Below, in pieces: positions 1,934 to 30,377 of a stretch of 30,930 bases of DNA (position 1 is the stretch's first letter; every line of letters starts with the position of its first letter). The translations under genes were made by a program, and so were the position numbers. The notes beneath the pieces were generated by a model. That model saw nothing but the letters and a program-made list of their open reading frames with translations. It made no database searches and was not told the DNA's origin. Source of the DNA: a virus. The stretch lies in IMG/VR virus record IMGVR_UViG_3300042352_000087, positions 1 through 30,930 of that record. One strand, given 5' to 3'.

Positions 1934-4027
1934 TTATGCTTTTTGTTTTAACAAATCAATTTCAGCTTTTAATTCTTTTATAGCGTTTACCATAGCTACA
2001 AATATAGCCTCTTTGTCAAGTCCTAATCTTACAACTTCTTCTTCATCTTCTGTAATTGTAAACTCGTTAATTAATTCAGGCATTATTTCTTGAACCTCTT
2101 GAGCAATAAATCCAAATTGTTTACCTTGATTTGCAGTGTCATTTATCCAATTGTAAGAAACGGGTCTTAATTGTAGTATTTCAGTAAGTCCATATTCTAA
2201 ATCTTCAATATTTTCTTTTAGACGTTCGTCTGATGGGTTTGTGTTTGTTAGTGTTCCTGCGTTTGAGTAAACCGTACCTGTGCCTAAAGTAATAATATTT
2301 ATGTTGCCACTTGGAGTGACACGCATACGTTCGGTATCGTTTTGAGTAAATACTAAAGGATGGTTACTTCTTGCTCCAATATTAACAAATCCACTAGCAT
2401 TATCCCCAGCAACTTGAGCAACTACTGAACCACTTGAAGCTAATATAAATCCGTAACTACTTCCGTTAACTTCTAAAACTCTAGCAGTACCTGTAATTGT
2501 TTGCGGACTTGTTGTTCCTATTCCTACGTTGCCTCTTAAAATAGTTGTTACAATACTGCTATTTCCTAATGTTACAGTGTTTGAACCGTGACCTACTGCA
2601 TTGTGTCCTATGACTATTTGATTGGTTTGATTGTTTGAATTTGGTCTTGTATCTGCTCCTATAAATATAGAATTGTTTGTGTTTGTAAGTGAAGAACCAT
2701 TACTAATTAAATTAGCAGAATTATTACCAATAGCAATATTAGAAGAACCACTTATGTTAAAAGGTAATGCATAATAACCTAAACCTGTATTATTATTTCC
2801 TACTGTATTTTCACCTAACGCATAATTTCCAAACGCACTATTTGTTGAACCTGTAGTGTTAGTCATTAAAGCACCAGTTCCATAAGCACTATTTACAGCA
2901 CCTGTTGTATTACTTTTTAAAGCATTGTCACCAAAAGACGCATTACTTGCTACATTACCCTTGCCATTATTCCATACTGTTAAATCAGTAGCGTTGAATT
3001 CTAAAGAACCTACAGAACCGCCACCACTTGCTGAAATTGTACCACCTGAAATAGTTATGTTAGTCCCTGCAGTAAGTACTGAACCATTAGCAGCTAATAT
3101 TTGAGCATCAGTACCACCTGATTTAATAAATGAATTGGCTGTTACATTTCCTACTGATGTTAATTTAAATTTAATTAATCCATCTATACCTTGATGCGAA
3201 ATAACGTCACCTGTTGAAGTTCCTGAAGATTTTAACACTAAACCTACACCAGTACTAGCATTGTTAATTTCTAATCCTTGACCTGTAGAATTGTTGTTAA
3301 TAAATTGTCCCCAATCTGAAGTATTATTTGTTACTATTAAAGCACTTCCAGCAACAGTTGTAAATGTTTTTATTCCTGTAATACTTTGATTTCCTGTCAA
3401 TTTAACAACAGTATTATCCAAAGCATAAGTATTTGTATCTAAACTATAAGTATTTGCCGCTGTTTTTCTTAATAGTCCACTTGTTCCTGTAAGTCCTGCA
3501 ATAGAAGTTAAATCTCCATCTAAAGGCTGTTTAGCATCTAAAGAATTTTGTAAGTCTGTTTGATTCGATAAAGTACCTGTTATTGCACCCCAAACAGCAT
3601 TATTAGAAGCTATTTCAATATAAACAGAACCACTCCAACGATAGATTTTATTATTATCTAATGTAATGTATATTTTACCCGTTTCACCAACTGTAGGTAA
3701 AGCAGCAAAATTAGCTACTTCAATAACATCATCTACAAAAGATGGTAATTGATTCGCAGGAACTTTACCATTGATTAAATCAGCTTTGTTAAATAAAGCA
3801 TTTTGTAAATCTACTTGGTCTAATATATTACCATAGATAGTTCCCCATCTTGCAAAAGAAGAACCTTTATTAATATTAACTTCAACTAAACAAGGTGTTA
3901 CATTTAAAGTAACCTCATCAGAATTATCAATTACATCAATATCTATTATTTGGTCGTTAGGTTGTGCTGTAACTTGAATATTATTTACAACTTCAGTTAC
4001 ACCTATTGTTACATCATCATCACACAT
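1934..4027 (-). CDS. Tail fibre with C-terminal S74 intramolecular chaperone
   Basis: This 697-residue protein is the probable host-binding fibre. The N-terminal part has two copies of a short fibre repeat beginning WGTIYGN and WGAITGT, each ending DLQN-L-K, and a GKIYITLDNNKIYRWSG stretch. Residues about 355-465 hold YadA-head-like repeats (NSAYGTGALMTNTTG, NSAFGNYALGENTVG, NTGLGYYAL). The last 100 residues are a peptidase S74 domain: Ser599 and Lys604 in SDERLKENI form the expected Ser/Lys dyad five residues apart, followed by FGFIAQEVQEIMPEL and a C-terminal coiled coil. In this family the domain helps fibre trimers fold and then cuts itself off. Inference: the mature fibre ends just before Ser599. 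The gene sits between a baseplate-like protein and the lysis cassette, as distal fibres usually do. Confidence 0.88.
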   Translation of the reverse strand: MCDDDVTIGVTEVVNNIQVTAQPNDQIIDIDVIDNSDEVTLNVTPCLVEVNINKGSSFARWGTIYGNILDQVDLQNALFNKADLINGKVPANQLPSFVDDVIEVANFAALPTVGETGKIYITLDNNKIYRWSGSVYIEIASNNAVWGAITGTLSNQTDLQNSLDAKQPLDGDLTSIAGLTGTSGLLRKTAANTYSLDTNTYALDNTVVKLTGNQSITGIKTFTTVAGSALIVTNNTSDWGQFINNNSTGQGLEINNASTGVGLVLKSSGTSTGDVISHQGIDGLIKFKLTSVGNVTANSFIKSGGTDAQILAANGSVLTAGTNITISGGTISASGGGSVGSLEFNATDLTVWNNGKGNVASNASFGDNALKSNTTGAVNSAYGTGALMTNTTGSTNSAFGNYALGENTVGNNNTGLGYYALPFNISGSSNIAIGNNSANLISNGSSLTNTNNSIFIGADTRPNSNNQTNQIVIGHNAVGHGSNTVTLGNSSIVTTILRGNVGIGTTSPQTITGTARVLEVNGSSYGFILASSGSVVAQVAGDNASGFVNIGARSNHPLVFTQNDTERMRVTPSGNINIITLGTGTVYSNAGTLTNTNPSDERLKENIEDLEYGLTEILQLRPVSYNWINDTANQGKQFGFIAQEVQEIMPELINEFTITEDEEEVVRLGLDKEAIFVAMVNAIKELKAEIDLLKQKA

Positions 4028-4919: not shown

Positions 4920-7619
4920 CTATTTCAATGCTATAAATTGTGGTAATGTTAGTGGGTCTTTTTGAGTATCTATTTTCAAAATTAACTCATCTAACTTTTC
5001 ATTATTTTCTACCAATTGTGGTGCATTTGTTGCAAGTTGTATTTGGTCTCCTACATAAAACGCTTGTGTATAAGAACCTTTTAACATAGAGCTTCTACGT
5101 CTAACTCCCGAACTAACATCTCGACCTACAATATCAAAGCCACTAATACCAATAAATCGATAAGGAGCAGCATTTGTTGCTAATGTAGTCAATAGCGTTC
5201 CCGTTGCATAGTCATCAGTTGCCGTTGCCGTTGTAACTTTCCAAAGTTCATATCCTAAGTTATCTCCACCCAAAATAGAAACTTGACTATCTCCATTTGC
5301 ATCTTCAACTAAAACGTTAATAAGTTCGTTGTCAGTTGGTGTGATAGTCTTTGGTGGTGTAGCTTTCATTGCATTGTATTTAGTAGAGGAATTTACTACA
5401 ATTGACTTGTAAGTAATTGTTCCACTCGCTACACTAATAATTGAAGCGTTGTCATCTTTTAGTTTTACATTGTAATTACCAAAATCTAAATACAAACCAT
5501 CCCTTGCAACTAATTGACCTAATTTAATTCCTGTTTCAGAAAGTCTAAATACAGCAGTTGCATCGTATAATTGTGAGGTAGTTGATAAGGTAGTGTATGC
5601 ACTTGCAGTTGCAAAGTTATCAGTAATTCCGACATCTTCAGCATCTGTAATATTATACCAAACATTACCACCATTTAATACCAAAGTATCTTCCGTTCTT
5701 TTTTGTCCGTATTTTTCAGCAGCTAAAAAGTATGTTCCTGCTTCATTCGGTGCAAAGTAAACATAATAAGAACCCGCATTTACATTTGATGCAAAATATT
5801 TAGTAGTTCCATCTGCTTTAAAAATACAAAGAGAATAAGCATTACTTGGTGGGTTTAATTCCAATACGGTAGAAGTTCCTGCTGTTGTAGCATAAACAGC
5901 TGTTATTTGACCTGTTCCGTTTAGTGTAATAGTATCAAAATAAGACTCGCTAAATTTAGCACCAGCACTTACTGTAACTCCTGTATTAACTACCAAAGAC
6001 CAACCTGTAAAAGCAGTAATTCTTAAACCATTTGCAGTTAAAACATATTGACTTAAATTAGGTATAACAGCATTTGCAGCACTTGAACAATTCCAAGCCA
6101 CAACATAGTCATATAACTCGTCATAAGTAGCATTTCCTGTTATGGTTATTACTTTAGTAGTTGAATTGATTGAAAATTTAGAAGACAAAGCCAAAGCTTG
6201 TGTTTCAGTCAAAGTGACATTTGCATCTACTAATTGGTTAATCAAACCGCCTAACTTTAAATCAGTACCATTTCCCGCAGTTCCTAATGAATAGGTGTAT
6301 GGCGTATGCGTTCCATTTACTACGTTAAAACCATAGCATTTAATACCATAGTTAAAAGTAGTATAAAAGTTAGTTGGTGTTGCCGTACCATTACCTGTTG
6401 CTGAATAGGTAGCTTGTACAACCGTTGCAGTAAAAGTACTTGAAGCAGTATTCACAACAGAAGATACAATAGTTCCGTCACCACGTTGCAACACTACCGT
6501 TGTTCTAGGTTGTAAGTTAGTATAATCGTCTGAAAATTGAAAGGTTATAGGCACGTTTCCACCTGCAAATCTAAGAATAGTAACGAATGGCGTTATCACA
6601 TTTGTAAAAGTATAACTACCGTTATTTATATCGTCTATAAAAGCACCTGAACCCGTATCATTTACGATTGTTCTATTGTTTGCACTTGCTCCAAAACTTA
6701 CCGCACTTGCAGCTCTAAATATTCCTAAAGGTGTACCCGCCCCAAATTGTGGGAAACTTAAAAACGAACCTTGAAAAGCACCATTACCCCAAACTATTAA
6801 ATTAGCATTTGAATAGTCTGCCTCGTGTATTGTTTTGTATAACAAATGTCTGTCAGGATTTGAAGCCCAGTTAGCACCATTTGAAGGACTTGCACAAGCG
6901 TGATAAATTCTAGTTCCGTAAAAAGCATAACTTTTATTTGTAGCACCTGTTCCCTCTGCTCCAATAAAAAAACTTCTACGCATTGGTGAACCAATAGCAC
7001 CACCAAAGAAAAACATATGCGCCGAAGTTCCACCTGTCCCCCAAAGGTTATATTGTGGCTCTCCCGCAAGTGGATAGTTTTCGTTAGGTCTTGCAGTACA
7101 TTCTCTACTCCATACAAACGATTCTTTACTTAAACCATCATAAGACATTAATTTACCAAAAACTGCAACCCCACCATTAAAACGGAAGCCGTTAGTCATT
7201 GTAAATTGTTTGTGTTGGTCAAAAAAGCATAAAGACGTTTCACTTCCCGCAGTTCCCATTACAATATTATCTGAAACGGTTACTACGTTTGTATCAGGAG
7301 TTGTAACGGTAAATCCTGTTACTGCACTTTCGTTTGAATTTTTAGAAACTAATATTTGGTCGCCTACAACTTGCGTTGCGTACAATCCTGTTACTGGGTC
7401 TACAAATCTATTTTCTAATTCTAAAACGGTTGTTGAAGTAAATCTACGAACCCAAGCAATACCTTTAAATGCTCCTGTACTACTATGTAAAGATAACATT
7501 CTTTGATTAGCACCAAAATCGCCACTTACAAAAGTTCCAGTTCCAATTGTTACCGTTGTCGTTCCTACTGCTGAAAGTGAACGTATTGCGTATCTTCCTC
7601 CTGTTATATTTACTGGCAT
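4920..7619 (-). CDS. Large tail or adhesion structural protein (899 aa)
   Basis: The 899-residue protein is rich in Thr, Ser, Asn, Gly and Ala with short alternating beta-strands throughout, as in phage adhesins and beta-helix fibres. The first 100 residues (TGGRYAIRSLSAVGTTTVTIG) look like a virion-attachment domain. The middle contains Cys-, Trp- and Phe-rich loops (HMFFFGGAIGSPMRR). The C-terminal 50 residues end in a helix (ENNEKLDELILKIDTQ) likely to trimerise. No hydrolase motif is clear. It follows a 27-codon gene by a TAATG junction. Base composition is visibly higher in G+C than its neighbours in places (31 of 60 bases at 7021-7080), which suggests separate acquisition. Host recognition is inferred. 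Confidence 0.7.
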   Translation of the reverse strand: MPVNITGGRYAIRSLSAVGTTTVTIGTGTFVSGDFGANQRMLSLHSSTGAFKGIAWVRRFTSTTVLELENRFVDPVTGLYATQVVGDQILVSKNSNESAVTGFTVTTPDTNVVTVSDNIVMGTAGSETSLCFFDQHKQFTMTNGFRFNGGVAVFGKLMSYDGLSKESFVWSRECTARPNENYPLAGEPQYNLWGTGGTSAHMFFFGGAIGSPMRRSFFIGAEGTGATNKSYAFYGTRIYHACASPSNGANWASNPDRHLLYKTIHEADYSNANLIVWGNGAFQGSFLSFPQFGAGTPLGIFRAASAVSFGASANNRTIVNDTGSGAFIDDINNGSYTFTNVITPFVTILRFAGGNVPITFQFSDDYTNLQPRTTVVLQRGDGTIVSSVVNTASSTFTATVVQATYSATGNGTATPTNFYTTFNYGIKCYGFNVVNGTHTPYTYSLGTAGNGTDLKLGGLINQLVDANVTLTETQALALSSKFSINSTTKVITITGNATYDELYDYVVAWNCSSAANAVIPNLSQYVLTANGLRITAFTGWSLVVNTGVTVSAGAKFSESYFDTITLNGTGQITAVYATTAGTSTVLELNPPSNAYSLCIFKADGTTKYFASNVNAGSYYVYFAPNEAGTYFLAAEKYGQKRTEDTLVLNGGNVWYNITDAEDVGITDNFATASAYTTLSTTSQLYDATAVFRLSETGIKLGQLVARDGLYLDFGNYNVKLKDDNASIISVASGTITYKSIVVNSSTKYNAMKATPPKTITPTDNELINVLVEDANGDSQVSILGGDNLGYELWKVTTATATDDYATGTLLTTLATNAAPYRFIGISGFDIVGRDVSSGVRRRSSMLKGSYTQAFYVGDQIQLATNAPQLVENNEKLDELILKIDTQKDPLTLPQFIALK

Positions 7620-10882: not shown

Positions 10883-11410
10883 TTATGAACCGCTTACAAC
10901 AGTAAATCCTGCTAATGCTAAAGTAGTAGATATAAAGTTTGCAGGTGCTTGTTCTTGTGCTGATAATGTCAAAGTATATCCTGACAAATCACCCATAGCA
11001 GCTCCCGTTACAATTGTACCACCTGTTACTTCCATACCGTGTTCTAAACCTGCTAAAAAGAAGTTTCCGTTGTTATCCTCAACTACTACTTGTGGTCTAC
11101 CATAAGAAAGTAATTTGATTTGTTTGTGGTCTACAACTGATAATTTCTTTAAAGTTAAATTTAAAGTTTGTTCAAAGAATGTAGTTCCATTTTCTCTTGA
11201 AGAAGTAATTGTTTGTTCAAATGAACTATTCCCTTTCAAGTCATATTTATATGCACTAGGTGTACCTAAAACTGTAGCAATAGCATCTGTATTTGTTACA
11301 TCATAAGTTACCCCTGTCATATCACCCCAATTAACGAAATAAACTGCTTTTAGACCTCCTGTAGAGTCTTTACATTTTTCCGTTCTTCCTAATGCGATTT
11401 CACAAGCCAT
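10883..11410 (-). CDS. Major tail protein (tail tube subunit)
   Basis: This 175-residue protein has the pattern ACEIALGRTEKCKDSTGGLKA at the N-terminus, YKYDLKGNSSFEQTI, ENGTTFFEQTLNLTLKKL and GRPQVVVEDNNGNFFLAGLEHGMEVTGG. The beta-rich composition, size and the F-L-A-G-x-E-x-G-x-E-V-x-x-G-x-x-x-T-G signature match tail tube proteins of Bacteroidota siphophages. Copies stack as hexamers to form the tail tube. It lies after the major capsid gene, from which it is separated by a hairpin terminator, and before a second, stronger terminator, so it may be made from its own short transcript or by partial read-through. Confidence 0.82.
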   Translation of the reverse strand: MACEIALGRTEKCKDSTGGLKAVYFVNWGDMTGVTYDVTNTDAIATVLGTPSAYKYDLKGNSSFEQTITSSRENGTTFFEQTLNLTLKKLSVVDHKQIKLLSYGRPQVVVEDNNGNFFLAGLEHGMEVTGGTIVTGAAMGDLSGYTLTLSAQEQAPANFISTTLALAGFTVVSGS

Positions 11411-14504: not shown

Positions 14505-16064
14505 TTAACCTATTGTTGCAGTTTTAACAATATTTCTATCTAAACTTTGAGCAGTAGTAACATCATTTGATACTACAAAAGCTTTAACAGGTGCTTGGTT
14601 TCCTAATGATTGTGCTATTTGATTTTGTCCTGATGTACCTACAACGTTAAATTGTGGAGCAGCAGGTGTTACTGAAGCAGGAGAAGAACTAACACCACCA
14701 CTTGGTACAGATGCACCACCACCACCTGAATTAGGAACTTGAACTTTTAATATATTTTTAACCGCAGCAAATCCTGATAGACCTGTTGCTATTGCTTGAA
14801 CTATTGCAAACCCCGGAATTGGTACACCTGAAAACGCTCTTAATTGTCCTGCTATTGCAGCGTATGTATTAATAAGAGAAGCAGCAACAGCCAATGCTTT
14901 TCCTTTTCCTGTTTCTTTACCTACTACGTCAGAAAGTACAGCTAAAGCATTTGCACTTGCGTTTAATAGTTGTTGTTTAGCATTAAATTCTTCTTGAGCA
15001 ATTTTATTTCTTGCATCAGCAGTAAGTTTTTCATTTGCTGTCCTTTTTTCATCTTGCGCTTCTAAAGCATCGACTAATGCAGTTGCATCAGATAAAGTTT
15101 TTGCATCAGTAGCTTCTTTTTCTAAAGCGTCAGCTATTCTTTTTTCTCTATTAACATTTTCAATGCCTATAAAAAAATCACGTTCTTCTTGTGCAGCTTT
15201 TTCTCTTTGCTCTTTTGCTTTTGCGTCTGCTTCCTTTTGTGCTGCTAATCTTTTTTCGTATTCAGCTTTGTTTTTAGCAGTTATTTCTTCTTGGTGTTTT
15301 TTATTTTCTTCTGCAGCTTTTTTAGCTTCTTCAGCTCTTTTTGCAGCCTCCTCTTTTTCTGCTTTTGTAGCTCCTTTTGAAGCATCAGTAAATCTTTTAT
15401 AAGCATCAGTACCTGATTTTACTGCAGTAGCAAATGAATTCTTTAATTGTTCAACACCTTCTTTTGCTAAATCAAAATCTAATGTTAATATACCTTTCCA
15501 TATTTTTAAATAAGAGGCACCCGCTTCTTTAACAAAAGAAAATAAACCTACCAATGCAGAATAAAAACCACCTATTCCTTTTATTATAGTTGGTAAATTA
15601 GCAATTGCAAAATCTATTATAGCATTAAATAAAGGTTCTACTGCAGCAAATATACCTGCAAATAGTTTTTCAACACCAGCCAATAATGGTTGGATTTTCT
15701 TCATTGCTTTTTCATTGTTGCTAAATGCTCCAGCTAAACCTGCAACTGCAGCAACTATAATTCCAATAATAGAAGCTTTTAACGCTCCATTGAAACTTGA
15801 GAATGTTCTTTCTGCAGCACGAATACCTTGCCCTAAAGTTCCTAAAGGACCAGAAGCGTTTTCTAATTGACCTAAAAAGTCATCATTGGTTGCTTTTGCA
15901 TCACCAATAGCGTCTTCCATATCACGTATAGAAGCACTTAATTTATCAAACTCTTTAGAACCTGCAGCCGTTTCTCTTAACTGCTTTTTAAGTTCTCTTA
16001 AGTTTTTTATTGTGGGTTCAAGGTTTGTGTTTACCTGTAAATCTACTTCTACTGTCTTTGCCAT
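14505..16064 (-). CDS. Tail tape measure protein
   Basis: This 519-residue protein has an N-terminal coiled coil (TIKNLRELKKQLRETAAGSKEF), hydrophobic helices at about 95-115 and 150-175, a long Ala/Glu/Lys-rich coiled coil (about 230-375), a second hydrophobic zone (about 395-440, ALAVAASLINTYAAIAGQL) and a Gly/Ser/Pro-rich C-terminus. This is the layout of tape measure proteins that set tail length and are ejected at infection. At roughly 0.15 nm per residue it predicts a tail of about 75-80 nm, short for a siphovirus. It is the last tail gene before the protease. Confidence 0.85.
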   Translation of the reverse strand: MAKTVEVDLQVNTNLEPTIKNLRELKKQLRETAAGSKEFDKLSASIRDMEDAIGDAKATNDDFLGQLENASGPLGTLGQGIRAAERTFSSFNGALKASIIGIIVAAVAGLAGAFSNNEKAMKKIQPLLAGVEKLFAGIFAAVEPLFNAIIDFAIANLPTIIKGIGGFYSALVGLFSFVKEAGASYLKIWKGILTLDFDLAKEGVEQLKNSFATAVKSGTDAYKRFTDASKGATKAEKEEAAKRAEEAKKAAEENKKHQEEITAKNKAEYEKRLAAQKEADAKAKEQREKAAQEERDFFIGIENVNREKRIADALEKEATDAKTLSDATALVDALEAQDEKRTANEKLTADARNKIAQEEFNAKQQLLNASANALAVLSDVVGKETGKGKALAVAASLINTYAAIAGQLRAFSGVPIPGFAIVQAIATGLSGFAAVKNILKVQVPNSGGGGASVPSGGVSSSPASVTPAAPQFNVVGTSGQNQIAQSLGNQAPVKAFVVSNDVTTAQSLDRNIVKTATIG

Positions 16065-20284: not shown

Positions 20285-20734
20285 TTAGCAAATAGTCATA
20301 TCATTATAAGTAATCAAATCAAATGTCATTGTAACACCTGCTATTTTGTTTTCAAATCTATCTACAAAATACTCTATTGTAGCGTTGCCACCTAATTCGT
20401 ATAAGTCATCAGATAAATCACCTCTTCTTGCTGATTCTAAAAATCTTGTAGCAACTGCTTCTTGTGTATTTAATACATCTTGCTCATTATCATTGCCTCT
20501 GAATATATCTTCTGTAGCTTCTTTAGATTCATCTACTATATCCATACATAAAATAGATACGTTATACTGCTTAGTGCTACCTATGTAAGAAGAACTATTT
20601 ATTATAATATGTGATAAAGGGAATATAGTTTGCTTGTTTAAATCAACTTTAAATATATCACCAATTGTAACTGTGTTTACAAATGGGTCTTTATCTAATT
20701 CTTCTTTTATTCTTGTGCTTATATCGTAATACAT
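20285..20734 (-). CDS. Tail terminator-like protein
   Basis: The 149-residue protein carries KQTIFPLSHIIINSSSYIG, NVSILCMDIVDESKEA, GNDNEQDVLNTQEAVATRFLE and a final YFVDRFENKIAGVTMTFDLI with NDMTIC at the end. This alpha/beta pattern is widely conserved in Bacteroidota phages. Its size, order of strands and place beside the gp10-like protein resemble tail terminators (gpU/gp17-like) that stop tube growth, which is inference. Its ATG shares one base with the TAA of the frame-shifted tail chaperone (TAATG), suggesting coupled translation from the shifted frame. Confidence 0.6.
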   Translation of the reverse strand: MYYDISTRIKEELDKDPFVNTVTIGDIFKVDLNKQTIFPLSHIIINSSSYIGSTKQYNVSILCMDIVDESKEATEDIFRGNDNEQDVLNTQEAVATRFLESARRGDLSDDLYELGGNATIEYFVDRFENKIAGVTMTFDLITYNDMTIC

Positions 20735-21473
20735 TATTTTTTATTTATTAGTTTCATTTCTATATCAGTCTTTTCTTTTTCAAAGCTTAAGTATGTTAAA
20801 CTTTGGTGTATTGGTAACTTGGAAACTTCATCAAACCTTCCAACGTTTCCTTGAGCAAGAGCATAGATACTTGAATACCATCCCCACCGTTTTCCGAATT
20901 GTGCTTGTTCAGAATATTCTGCACTTCCTGATTCTTCTCCAAATAATTTATCGTACTGCTTAATAAGTCGTTCCCTAAATTGTAAAAAAAAACCATAGCA
21001 CCTAATACTACATCTAAAGGTGCGTGTCGCATTACATCTGCGTAAGTAACTGAACCTTTGTATTCTTCTATATTATATTTAGTTCCTAACTTATTTGTTA
21101 TAGGTCTATATAATACAGCCATTGCATTATGCATAGTTTCCCAATCTGTAATGTAAGCATCCAAATCCATATATTCACCTGTAGACATCTCATCTAAGTT
21201 AGGTATAAATCCAAACTCTACACCACCCATTTTAAAGCGTTGTATGAAACGATTTTCTTTAGTGAATAGATTATTAATGTTTTGATTAATTTCTACTACA
21301 TCTTTGTACCTAATAGAAGCTACATCTTTTAAATCTATACCACAAAATATTTGCACCATCTTTTGTTGCAAGAATTCTGATTCTTCATTATCTTTAACTA
21401 TAGATAAAAACTTTTGATACTGTGCAAGTTTTATTTCGTTTAAAGAAGTTGGTATTGTTAATTCTATCTTCAT
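20734..21473 (-). CDS. Tail assembly chaperone, -1 frameshift fusion (GT-like), 246 aa
   Basis: Codons 1-163 are those of the unshifted gene, ending V-F-F on the T run. A one-base slip back at 20985 then continues for 83 codons (LQFRERLIKQYDKLFGEESG at the junction, QFGKRWGWYSSIYALAQGNV, RFDEVSKLPIHQSLTYLSFE, KEKTDIEMKLINKK) to TAA at 20734, which overlaps the next ATG as TAATG. The shifted segment is clearly protein-like, and the W-G-W-Y-x-x-I-Y-x-L-A-x-G-x-x-x-x-F-x-x-V-x-x-L-P pattern recurs in Bacteroidota phages after this gene. It has no start codon of its own upstream in frame near the junction. This mirrors lambda gpG/gpGT. An alternative is a homopolymer length error: ten T would give one uninterrupted 246-codon gene. 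Confidence 0.75.
20796..21473 (-). CDS. Tail assembly chaperone, unshifted product (G-like)
   Basis: This 225-residue protein starts IELTIPTSLNEIKLAQYQKF and has FKMGGVEFGFIPNLDEMSTGEYMDLDAY in the middle (split here: GVEFGFIPNLDEMSTGEY at 84-101) and HNAMAVLYRPI at 115-125. The P-T-S-L-N-E-I-x-L-x-Q-Y-Q and E-F-G-F-I-P-N-L-x-x-M-x-x-G-E-Y-x-D-L-D signatures recur in Bacteroidota phages at the head of the tail operon. From residue 164 on, the same DNA also encodes a second protein-like frame (see the shifted product). It is the first gene after a terminator and paired repeats, so it likely starts the late transcript. G/GT-type chaperones wrap the tape measure before tube assembly. The role is inferred. 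Confidence 0.75.
   Translation of the reverse strand: MKIELTIPTSLNEIKLAQYQKFLSIVKDNEESEFLQQKMVQIFCGIDLKDVASIRYKDVVEINQNINNLFTKENRFIQRFKMGGVEFGFIPNLDEMSTGEYMDLDAYITDWETMHNAMAVLYRPITNKLGTKYNIEEYKGSVTYADVMRHAPLDVVLGAMVFFYNLGNDLLSSTINYLEKNQEVQNILNKHNSENGGDGIQVSMLLLKETLEGLMKFPSYQYTKV
20985..20991 (-). promoter_or_regulatory. Slippery heptamer T_TTT_TTT for -1 frameshifting
   Basis: Nine T in a row (minus strand, 20992-20984) lie across codons GTT TTT TTT TAC. The zero frame places a heptamer T TTT TTT at 20991-20985, which satisfies X_XXY_YYZ. Slipping back one base reads TTA CAA next. I see no obvious strong stem-loop or internal ribosome site within the following 40 nt, so slippage may depend on the long T run itself. 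Confidence 0.72.
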
Positions 21474-21520: not shown

Positions 21521-21573
21521 GTGATTTATATTTAAGACATAATGTATTGTTTTGTGTTAAATATAAGACATAA
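21521..21573 (-). repeat. Paired imperfect direct repeats, 31 bp apart, upstream of the tail operon
   Basis: On the plus strand GTGATTTATATTTAAGACAT plus AA (21521-21542) is echoed by GTGTTAAATATAAGACATAA (21554-21573). The shared core AAGACATAA starts at 21534 and 21565, 31 bp apart. The pair lies between the terminator at 21572-21599 and the ATG at 21473, the same arrangement as the repeats at 10780-10831 although the sequence differs. They may be operator or phage-specific promoter sites. The rest of this 172-nt gap (21474-21645) is AT-rich and holds no gene. Confidence 0.6.
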
Positions 21574-21599
21574 AAAAAAGCTACCATTTCTGATAGCTT
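21572..21599 (-). terminator. Rho-independent terminator closing the three-gene mini-operon
   Basis: On the minus strand AAGCTATC and GGTAGCTT form an 8-bp stem with one G-U pair around a 6-nt loop (AGAAAT), followed by TTTTTT and more. It starts 47 nt after the zinc-finger gene stop and ends upstream of the tail operon, so it isolates the small genes from the late genes. Confidence 0.92.
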
Positions 21600-21645
21600 A
21601 AATAAGAATTAAAATCTGTTCTATTGGGAAGATATTTAATTACAG

Positions 21646-22392: not shown

Positions 22393-23559
22393 CTAATAAA
22401 CGTAATAAGTTCCCTTATTGGGATTTTCTAACTGTGAAGTGATTGCATAACGCATTGCATCTATTGCGTGATTATAAGCATCTATAGGTTTATTTAGCTT
22501 GTTACCTTGTTTATCAGTCATCCAAATGTAATTCCTTAATTCATTGATTAAATTCTTACTTCTTGATGTAACGTAAACTTTATTCTGATTGATTAAATTA
22601 AGACCATATACGATACTATCTCTACCTTTACTAACAGGTAACACATTATGACCATAACTATTCAACTCAGCTATTGATTTAGGTTCAGCACTATCTGCGT
22701 AAACTATATCTTGTACATCATTTGTTTTAAGTAAATCACTAATATCTGAATTAAGCAATCCTTTTTGATATATCAACTCATCAAATATATAAGCATCATT
22801 GTATTTGTACATAGCTATTAAAGATGTAGGGTCATTACTATATCCCCAATCCATTCCGTAACAAAGTAGTCTTGCTTCTTCAGGTAGATTAATCTCTTGC
22901 CAATCAGGAATACATACACCTTCTAAAGAACCTGTTAAACCTAATCCGTATACTTGCCACCAATTCGCCCAATAAGCAGATGTCTTTGCTTTTTCTTTTG
23001 CTGATTCTATTTCTTTTACAATAGTTTCAGGTAGTGCTTCATTATCTAAATAAGTCAATGTAATAAAGTCTACATCTTCTTGATTAATGATTTCTCTATC
23101 TACCCAAAATAAACTTGATGGATTATAATCTAACCATATCTCACCTGATGTTCTAATAGCTAATTGATAGTATGAATCAAAGTCTACATTGTTACACTCA
23201 TTAACGTATAATACATTTCTTCTTGCACCTCTTAACTTATCAGGTTGGTCTACAGAAAAGAATTCAATATAACTACCATTGCCGAATGTATATTTAAGTG
23301 TACTCTTATTAAATTGATTATCGTTATATCTACCAAGTGCCATCATTATCTTTAAGAAGTCTTTTAATGCACCTCTACGTAAATGTGGTATAGATTCAGA
23401 TACAACACTAATCTCTAAGTTAGGTGTCTTAATTGCTCTGTCAATAAGTATAGGGAGAATACTAAATGTCTTTGATGCACTTGTACCTCCCCTTACTACC
23501 TTAATACGCTTTTTAAGACGTAATAACTTCTTTAAAGCTGTAGTTACTATAAATTCCAT
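22393..23559 (-). CDS. terL: Terminase large subunit (DNA packaging ATPase-nuclease)
   Basis: The 388-residue protein has a Walker A variant GGTSASKT (24-31), Walker B VLYVNE (116-121) ending in the catalytic Glu, and a coupling-motif-like stretch near 135-150. The nuclease half has Asp237 in YGMDWGYSNDP, Asp289 in YADSAEPKSI and Asp367 in DAYNHAIDAMRY, the usual RuvC-like metal ligands. It pumps DNA into proheads through the portal and cuts concatemers. The size and motifs fit the PBSX-type TerL family. It follows the small subunit by 9 nt. Unusually it belongs to the replication-side transcript and is not directly joined to portal and capsid genes. Confidence 0.95.
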   Translation of the reverse strand: MEFIVTTALKKLLRLKKRIKVVRGGTSASKTFSILPILIDRAIKTPNLEISVVSESIPHLRRGALKDFLKIMMALGRYNDNQFNKSTLKYTFGNGSYIEFFSVDQPDKLRGARRNVLYVNECNNVDFDSYYQLAIRTSGEIWLDYNPSSLFWVDREIINQEDVDFITLTYLDNEALPETIVKEIESAKEKAKTSAYWANWWQVYGLGLTGSLEGVCIPDWQEINLPEEARLLCYGMDWGYSNDPTSLIAMYKYNDAYIFDELIYQKGLLNSDISDLLKTNDVQDIVYADSAEPKSIAELNSYGHNVLPVSKGRDSIVYGLNLINQNKVYVTSRSKNLINELRNYIWMTDKQGNKLNKPIDAYNHAIDAMRYAITSQLENPNKGTYYVY

Positions 23560-29507: not shown

Positions 29508-30377
29508 TTAACAATCTATAAAGCTAAAAATGTGTTCAATTATTGGTAAAGTCCAACCATCACCTAAAAGACTTGCAGCGTGATTTCTTGTAAGTATATC
29601 ACAATAATCATCAGGGAATCCTTGTAATCTACATAATTCTATTTTATTTAAAATTCTTACATTTTGATTTGGTTTAAATTCAGGGTTGTCAAATACTAAA
29701 TTAATCATACCAAGTTCAGTATATCTTTTATATAATTTATCTTTATTTACTAATTGTCTTTCTTCACTTTCCAATATAGCTCTTGCTTTTTTTCTATCTG
29801 TATATCCTGAAGTCAAAACATCTTGAAATAATAAACCTTTATCTTTAGGTTGTGGAATATCAGTTATTAAATCACCGAACATACCATCTTGTCTTGTTCT
29901 TATATTACTCCAATAATACCTATCCCTTGATGCAGCTACTACTAATTCAGAATTAAACCTAACAGGATAAACTCCTAATGCTCTTGACATAATTCCAATA
30001 TCTAATTTATTTGCACTTCCTACATTTTCCTGAAAAAATAATACATTAGGATTAAAAGATTTAATATGTTCTAATATTTCAACAAATGTGAAAAATAGAC
30101 TTGATTTTTTACCTTCAATTCCCGCGCGTTTTCCTGCTGCTGATAAATCTTGACAAGGTGAACCTGATAAAACTAAATCAATACTTTTCCAATCTATATC
30201 CCATTCTTGCCATTTAGTAACATCACCAACTTGTATAGTATCAGGAAAATGGTATTGTGTTAATTCTATAGCGTATGGTTTAATCTCGCTTGAATAATAT
30301 TTATTTACTTTAATGCCTACATTTTCTAATGCTTGGCGCCCCGTATTCATTCCGTTAAATAGTGATAGTACATTCAT
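29508..30377 (-). CDS. DNA (cytosine-5) methyltransferase
   Basis: The 289-residue enzyme has motif I VLSLFNGMNTGRQAL (3-17), motif IV SGSPCQDLSAAGKR (71-84) with catalytic Cys75, motif VI FQENVGS (115-121), motif VIII ASRDRYYWSNI (149-159), motif IX LCRLQGFPDDY (248-258) and motif X ASLLGDGWTLPII (268-280). These transfer a methyl group from S-adenosylmethionine to C5 of cytosine. The target-recognition region between VIII and IX is short. No restriction nuclease partner is visible in the window, so it looks like an orphan enzyme that protects phage DNA from host restriction. It starts 2 nt after the ATPase gene. Confidence 0.93.
   Translation of the reverse strand: MNVLSLFNGMNTGRQALENVGIKVNKYYSSEIKPYAIELTQYHFPDTIQVGDVTKWQEWDIDWKSIDLVLSGSPCQDLSAAGKRAGIEGKKSSLFFTFVEILEHIKSFNPNVLFFQENVGSANKLDIGIMSRALGVYPVRFNSELVVAASRDRYYWSNIRTRQDGMFGDLITDIPQPKDKGLLFQDVLTSGYTDRKKARAILESEERQLVNKDKLYKRYTELGMINLVFDNPEFKPNQNVRILNKIELCRLQGFPDDYCDILTRNHAASLLGDGWTLPIIEHIFSFIDC

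Follow-up and report, generated by a model that had tools for sequence, protein, structure and literature searches.

The window, by which we mean the whole stretch of DNA analysed, is a virus contig of 30,930 bases, and all positions given here refer to it. The recoded gene lies on the minus strand, downstream of the terminase gene and upstream of a probable tape-measure gene on the same strand (Table 1). At the run of nine T the zero-frame codons are GTT TTT TTT TAC, which places T_TTT_TTT in register at codons 161–163. A shift of one base back at this point enters a second reading which begins LQFRERLIKQYDKLFGEESGSAEYSEQAQFGKRWGWYSSIYALAQGNV, continues for 83 residues and ends at a TAA (20736–20734) that runs into the ATG of the next gene; the full -1 product is 246 amino acids long, its last 83 residues coming from the -1 frame. 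The stretch NYLEKNQEVQNILNK is unique to the end of the 225-residue form, and WGWYSSIYALAQGNVGR is unique to the end of the 246-residue form. The window's -1 frame opens with 50 codons free of ATG, GTG and TTG, and the zero frame stays open beyond the run, leaving 186 nt that are read in both frames. The in-register run, the 83-codon frame closing in a TAATG overlap, the lack of a nearby start and the two-frame stretch had all been put forward in the original prediction, and each is confirmed here.

Table 1. Features of the recoded locus and neighbouring genes in the window.
Feature	Position	Strand	Remarks
Zero-frame gene, 225 aa	20796–21473	minus	shared N-terminal domain (codons 1–163) and 62-codon tail after the run; kept in relatives
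Slippage run, T9 (A9 on the plus strand)	20984–20992	minus	T_TTT_TTT heptamer in register at 20991–20985
-1 frame C-terminal domain, 83 aa + stop	20734–20985	minus	entered only via the shift; WGWY motif in relatives
Dual-coded stretch, 62 zero-frame codons	20799–20984	minus	third-position change, codon-redraw and pairwise similarity tests
Next gene, 149 aa	20285–20734	minus	phrog_30964; ATG overlaps the -1 stop as TAATG
Structural-module gene, 180 aa	19741–20283	minus	phrog_29822, E = 8e-25; tblastn 34% to P12024L; order as in P12024L/S
Probable tail tape-measure protein	14505–16064	minus	phrog_9483 (tail length tape measure), E = 9e-11; weak NCBIfam RcGTA tape measure
Terminase large subunit	22393–23559	minus	precedes the recoded gene, immediately so in P12024L/S

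The order of genes following the recoded gene is common to the window and the cultured phages P12024L and P12024S. By eye, minus-strand positions of approximately 21570–21600, upstream of the recoded gene, look like an intrinsic terminator, with a hairpin and then eight T, and this putative terminator suggests that the recoded gene opens a new transcript. Elsewhere, the window encodes an 899-aa protein in the late-gene region (4920–7619) with no PHROG or Pfam match, a tail-fibre-like protein (1934–4027) with a C-terminal endosialidase-type chaperone domain (Peptidase_S74), and a C-5 cytosine DNA methylase (29508–30377, PF00145).

Relatives of the gene were collected in several searches. The first scan yielded 79 viral contigs, 31–98% identical, and wherever the locus was of sufficient length T_TTT_TTT stood at the equivalent codon, with a zero frame of 203–225 codons and a -1 frame of 244–250 codons. 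A further 80 loci came from an alignment search and 78 new ones, at greater distance, from a third search; scanning genomes contributed four loci from Bacteroidota MAGs (Flavobacterium, Winogradskyella twice, Bacteroidetes). Among the first sets, every one of the 149 complete loci had the heptamer in register and both the zero frame and the -1 domain open, while the distant and MAG loci carried the run in every case reaching the site and WGWY in the -1 frame in nearly all that were long enough. Aligning homologous loci had been proposed as a check on the original prediction, and it came out in its favour: of the 309 distinct relatives long enough to include the site, all 309 have the run at the same codon position. 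The run was 9 T long in 275 of these and 10 T in 34, with no exception, and runs of at least nine T are rare elsewhere in these loci (58 in 1.92 Mb). The columns of the run showed zero substitutions over a tree of length 7.5 (79 sequences).

An independent scan was keyed on the -1 domain motif F..[KR]WGWY alone, hence the zero frame played no part in selection. All 120 loci found in this way had the shared N-terminal domain out of frame together with T_TTT_TTT; none was fused, in keeping with the two separate frames first proposed, and 119 were at -1. In the sole exception, L362, the zero-type tail and the -1 domain are each displaced by one, which looks like a homopolymer miscount of one T in the run. 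The only cultured relatives found were the Nonlabens (Persicivirga) phages P12024L and P12024S, in which the site is CTT TTT TTT TAT, the -1 frame reads FRERL...KWGWY... and gp40 and gp41 are annotated as separate genes. A tblastn search of the -1 domain against cultured phages returned no match, though these two carry the domain by inspection. Further out there may be fused, single-frame relatives, as several BFVD proteins of 226–267 aa (A0A516L611, A0A516L5A8, A0A6J5N0W0, A0A6J5SVK3 and others) are similar to the shared domain as well as to the -1 domain. Flavobacterium phage 6H was a fold match (R9VW65, 5e-5), and its gp10 region showed no clear matching site.

On this comparative evidence the arrangement is a real expression switch, kept in more than 300 related phages, and not a sequencing error. 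We consider it probable that one gene is read as two proteins via slippage at the T9 run, with both ends functional. Most readings would give the unshifted 225-aa protein, made of the 163-aa shared domain and its own 62-aa tail, and a minority would slip one position into the -1 frame to give the 246-aa protein with a different C-terminal domain of 83 aa, an order of abundance that we infer. In 125 of the 149 complete loci the stop codon of the -1 reading shares bases with the ATG that opens the following gene (TAATG or ATGA type), hence only shifted readings terminate at the next start, and translational coupling at this point would favour them.

The length of the run bears on which machine slips. 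Six codon registers, with approximately 15 register changes on the tree, all give 9–10 T, never 7–8 and never 11 or more (309 loci); elsewhere in the same loci runs of 7–8 T outnumber runs of 9 (384 vs 54). Where the codon before the TTT codons supplies only one T (nine loci, approximately four clades), this is always offset by at least two more T or by a third TTT, compensating registers which rest on few lineages. Seven T suffice for tandem tRNA slippage, and a length that is always 9–10 T and never 7–8 is at least as compatible with RNA-polymerase slippage as with ribosomal slippage. Part of the rule comes from the proteins encoded: a T at run position 9 is also demanded by the -1 residue (Leu/Phe) and positions 1–2 mostly by a Val/Leu/Ile codon, hence amino-acid constraint accounts for much of the run length. 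Transcriptional slippage calls for a tract of some nine or more A or T, and such a tract is present in 309 of 309 loci. A review reports that nine A or T are enough for efficient slippage by the bacterial polymerase in vivo, and gives its hybrid as 9–10 bp (PMC5009743); under polymerase slippage part of the mRNA would carry an extra U.

Classical -1 programmed ribosomal frameshifting on U_UUU_UUU would make the same two products, and we give it somewhat less than an even chance. An X_XXY_YYZ heptamer stands in the zero-frame register in every complete locus (149/149), although any T9 run contains one. The lambda-type chaperone cases in the same review, including lambda G/GT itself, are ribosomal, and a low efficiency would be enough, as lambda's product ratio of 30:1 shows (PMC5009743); P2 E/E' is likewise annotated as a -1 translational frameshift. 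However, the 7–8 T runs that would be sufficient for a ribosome are never seen in the 309 loci, the registers vary while the length holds, and U_UUU_UUU is reported to be only weakly shifty in E. coli, far less so than A_AAA_AAG (PMC5009743). Furthermore, folding for RNA stem-loops detected no conserved downstream structure (single fold z = -0.88; pooled mean z = +0.15 to +0.2 in a set of 35 diverse loci). In the ribosomes of the host class, Bacteroidia, the anti-Shine-Dalgarno is occluded (PMC8710568), which makes Shine-Dalgarno stimulators doubtful, although prfB frameshifting is still common there. We therefore slightly favour RNA-polymerase slippage on 9–10 T over -1 ribosomal slippage, which is a lean, and the two may act together. 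The programmed -1 ribosomal frameshift originally proposed thus stands as a conserved and selected -1 recoding, while the length rule and the lack of detected structure weigh slightly against its ribosomal part.

To judge how far the open zero frame follows from the -1 protein, the latter was held fixed while its codons were drawn afresh following the codon usage of the window. The zero frame stayed open for at least 62 codons in 0.6% of redraws for the window, and comparable openness was reached in 0.01–0.9% for most distinct relatives; it was not unusual in L079 (37 codons, 56% of draws) or P12024L (25 codons, 20%). Permuting the codons within each gene gave weaker values, 0.07–10% outside L079 and P12024L. 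In the third frame the median open length is 2 codons.

Substitutions were also counted per codon position on trees. In the window's close group, third positions of the -1 frame changed 0.94 times per site in the overlap vs 3.19 in the -1-only tail, and those of the zero frame 0.81 times in the overlap vs 3.4–3.5 upstream. The corresponding values were 0.93 vs 1.89 and 0.71 vs 1.8–2.0 in group C of the relatives, and the tail of group B was too invariant to inform on the -1 side. Across 79 sequences with equal overlap, with shared ancestry only partly allowed for in the p values, the counts were 5.18 vs 9.30 for -1 third positions (p = 0.0025) and 5.16 vs 12.52 for zero-frame third positions (p = 1.6e-8). 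Similarity of the zero-frame tails in distant pairs, set against a null in which only the -1 protein is constrained, was matched by at most 9 of 2000 draws in seven of ten pairs, and by 37 and 78 of 2000 draws in two more. In the remaining pair, the window and L147, the zero tails were no more alike than the -1 protein forces.

Together, the third-position, redraw, similarity and third-frame results indicate that, for most of the family, the long overlap is genuine and kept by selection acting on both downstream frames, and that the 186 nt of the window are dual-coded, as the two-frame reading in the original prediction implied. The overlap is shorter in P12024L and L079, and the case for selection is confined to the rest of the family. 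The recoding could be real with only the long product mattering, the zero-frame tail being a by-product of the -1 protein sequence; this would suit the short zero-frame tails of ordinary openness in L079 and P12024L, and the window–L147 pair. We regard this as unlikely, since change at -1 third positions is held down within the overlap and rises again past the zero-frame stop, openness exceeds chance in the closer groups and zero-tail similarity lies above the null in most pairs. A zero frame open by chance was rejected by the same three tests (codon redraw, third positions and pairwise similarity).

Two independent overlapping genes, the second with its own start codon, is how P12024L gp41 is annotated, but this arrangement was rejected and is very improbable for the family, as 127 of the 149 complete loci lack ATG, GTG and TTG up to codon 50 of the -1 frame and the conserved -1 residues start right after the run. 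Least credible of all is a sequencing or assembly error hiding a true run of ten T and a single 246-codon gene, the alternative raised with the original prediction: homopolymers are error-prone and L362 appears to carry such a miscount, but the -1 relation is kept in more than 300 independent contigs and in the cultured P12024L/S, loci that do have ten T still require the -1 shift, the zero-frame tail is under selection, and the single ten-T gene was rejected with 0 of 120 motif-selected loci fused and 119 at -1.

What the two proteins do is suggested by the design and position of the gene, from which a G/GT-type tail-assembly chaperone pair is, with reasonable confidence, the likeliest role. 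In G/GT chaperones the long product binds the tail-tube protein, both products bind the tape measure and neither is found in the virion; their gene habitually sits between the major tail protein and tape-measure genes. As in that class, the comparative evidence points to two products from a single gene, with the -1 shift coming late in the first frame. Five ORFs separate the recoded gene from the tape-measure gene, and no tail-tube gene was identified directly upstream; by its size and location, 10883–11410 is a conjectural candidate for that gene. This position is a habit and not decisive for function, yet its absence lowers the claim to chaperone membership. The only family match of the zero-frame protein is phrog_32199, of unknown function, and neither product had a match in Pfam or NCBIfam, in PDB sequence and fold searches, or to lambda G/T, P2 E or HK97 gp13. 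A 'tail protein' family, phrog_166, was weakly matched by 9 of 71 family members (best 1.1e-4), and fold matches in BFVD were to unnamed phage proteins and, at E = 0.4 only, to a 'tail assembly chaperone'. AlphaFold models are mainly helical, with a pLDDT of 82.8 for the 225-aa form (below 50 in its last ten residues) and 79.6 for the -1 domain, and the slip site falls inside helix 153–180 of the zero-frame model. The original assignment to a G/GT-type tail chaperone is thus made plausible by the two-product design and the place upstream of the tape measure, but not shown by sequence or fold, and the gene does not adjoin the tape measure; the pair would work like G/GT, as a putative member of the chaperone class.

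Frameshifted tail chaperones are a textbook case of recoding, and lambda gpG/gpGT is the closest in layout: a short and a longer -1 product share an N-terminal part, the shift signal comes late in the gene, and the gene lies upstream of the tape measure on the same strand. Lambda differs in its site, GGGAAAG, which is followed by 5 zero-frame codons where the window has a run of 9–10 T and 62 dual-coded codons, in that T adjoins the tape-measure gene, which in the window is approximately 4.7 kb downstream, and in having no sequence similarity. P2 E and E+E' (-1 frameshift at TTTTTTG) also have a T-rich site, two products and a place upstream of the tape measure; they differ in having six T instead of 9–10, 6 zero-frame codons after the site and no sequence similarity. 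The length past the slip site is therefore unusual, as originally noted, in a comparison among chaperones that comprises lambda G and P2 E only.

Outside phage tails, Thermus dnaX has a run of nine and a product ratio set by mRNA heterogeneity (PMC5009743). Transcriptional slippage in Thermus dnaX and in Shigella spa13 and mxiE differs in lying outside a phage tail module. Tentatively, and at rather less than even odds, RNA-polymerase slippage on an obligatory 9–10 T, in place of ribosomal slippage, may set the ratio of two tail-assembly proteins across this clade of Bacteroidota phages, with fully dual-coded ends of 62 and 83 residues. Both alternative ends being long and selected, the short form probably has its own task, and since the run is 9 or 10 T in more than 300 phages, whether ribosome or polymerase slips can be tested directly.

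The nearest described system is gp40–gp41 of P12024L/S (phrog_32199), which shares the T9 run, a -1 domain with WGWY (WSWY in P12024S) and the following genes. P12024L differs in its zero-frame tail of 25 codons and in that gp41 is annotated as a separate gene and the recoding is unannotated; in the open-licence literature we found no paper describing recoding in a phrog_32199-type gene. Recognising the recoding would also correct the annotation of such genes, in which the second half is missing or called a separate gene, as in P12024L/S. In P12024L, gp41 is annotated as a separate 55-aa gene (L081, 4528–4695), and the same gene is present in L082; judging by comparison, P12024L gp41 and its L082 counterpart are the C-terminal part of the -1 recoded product of gp40.
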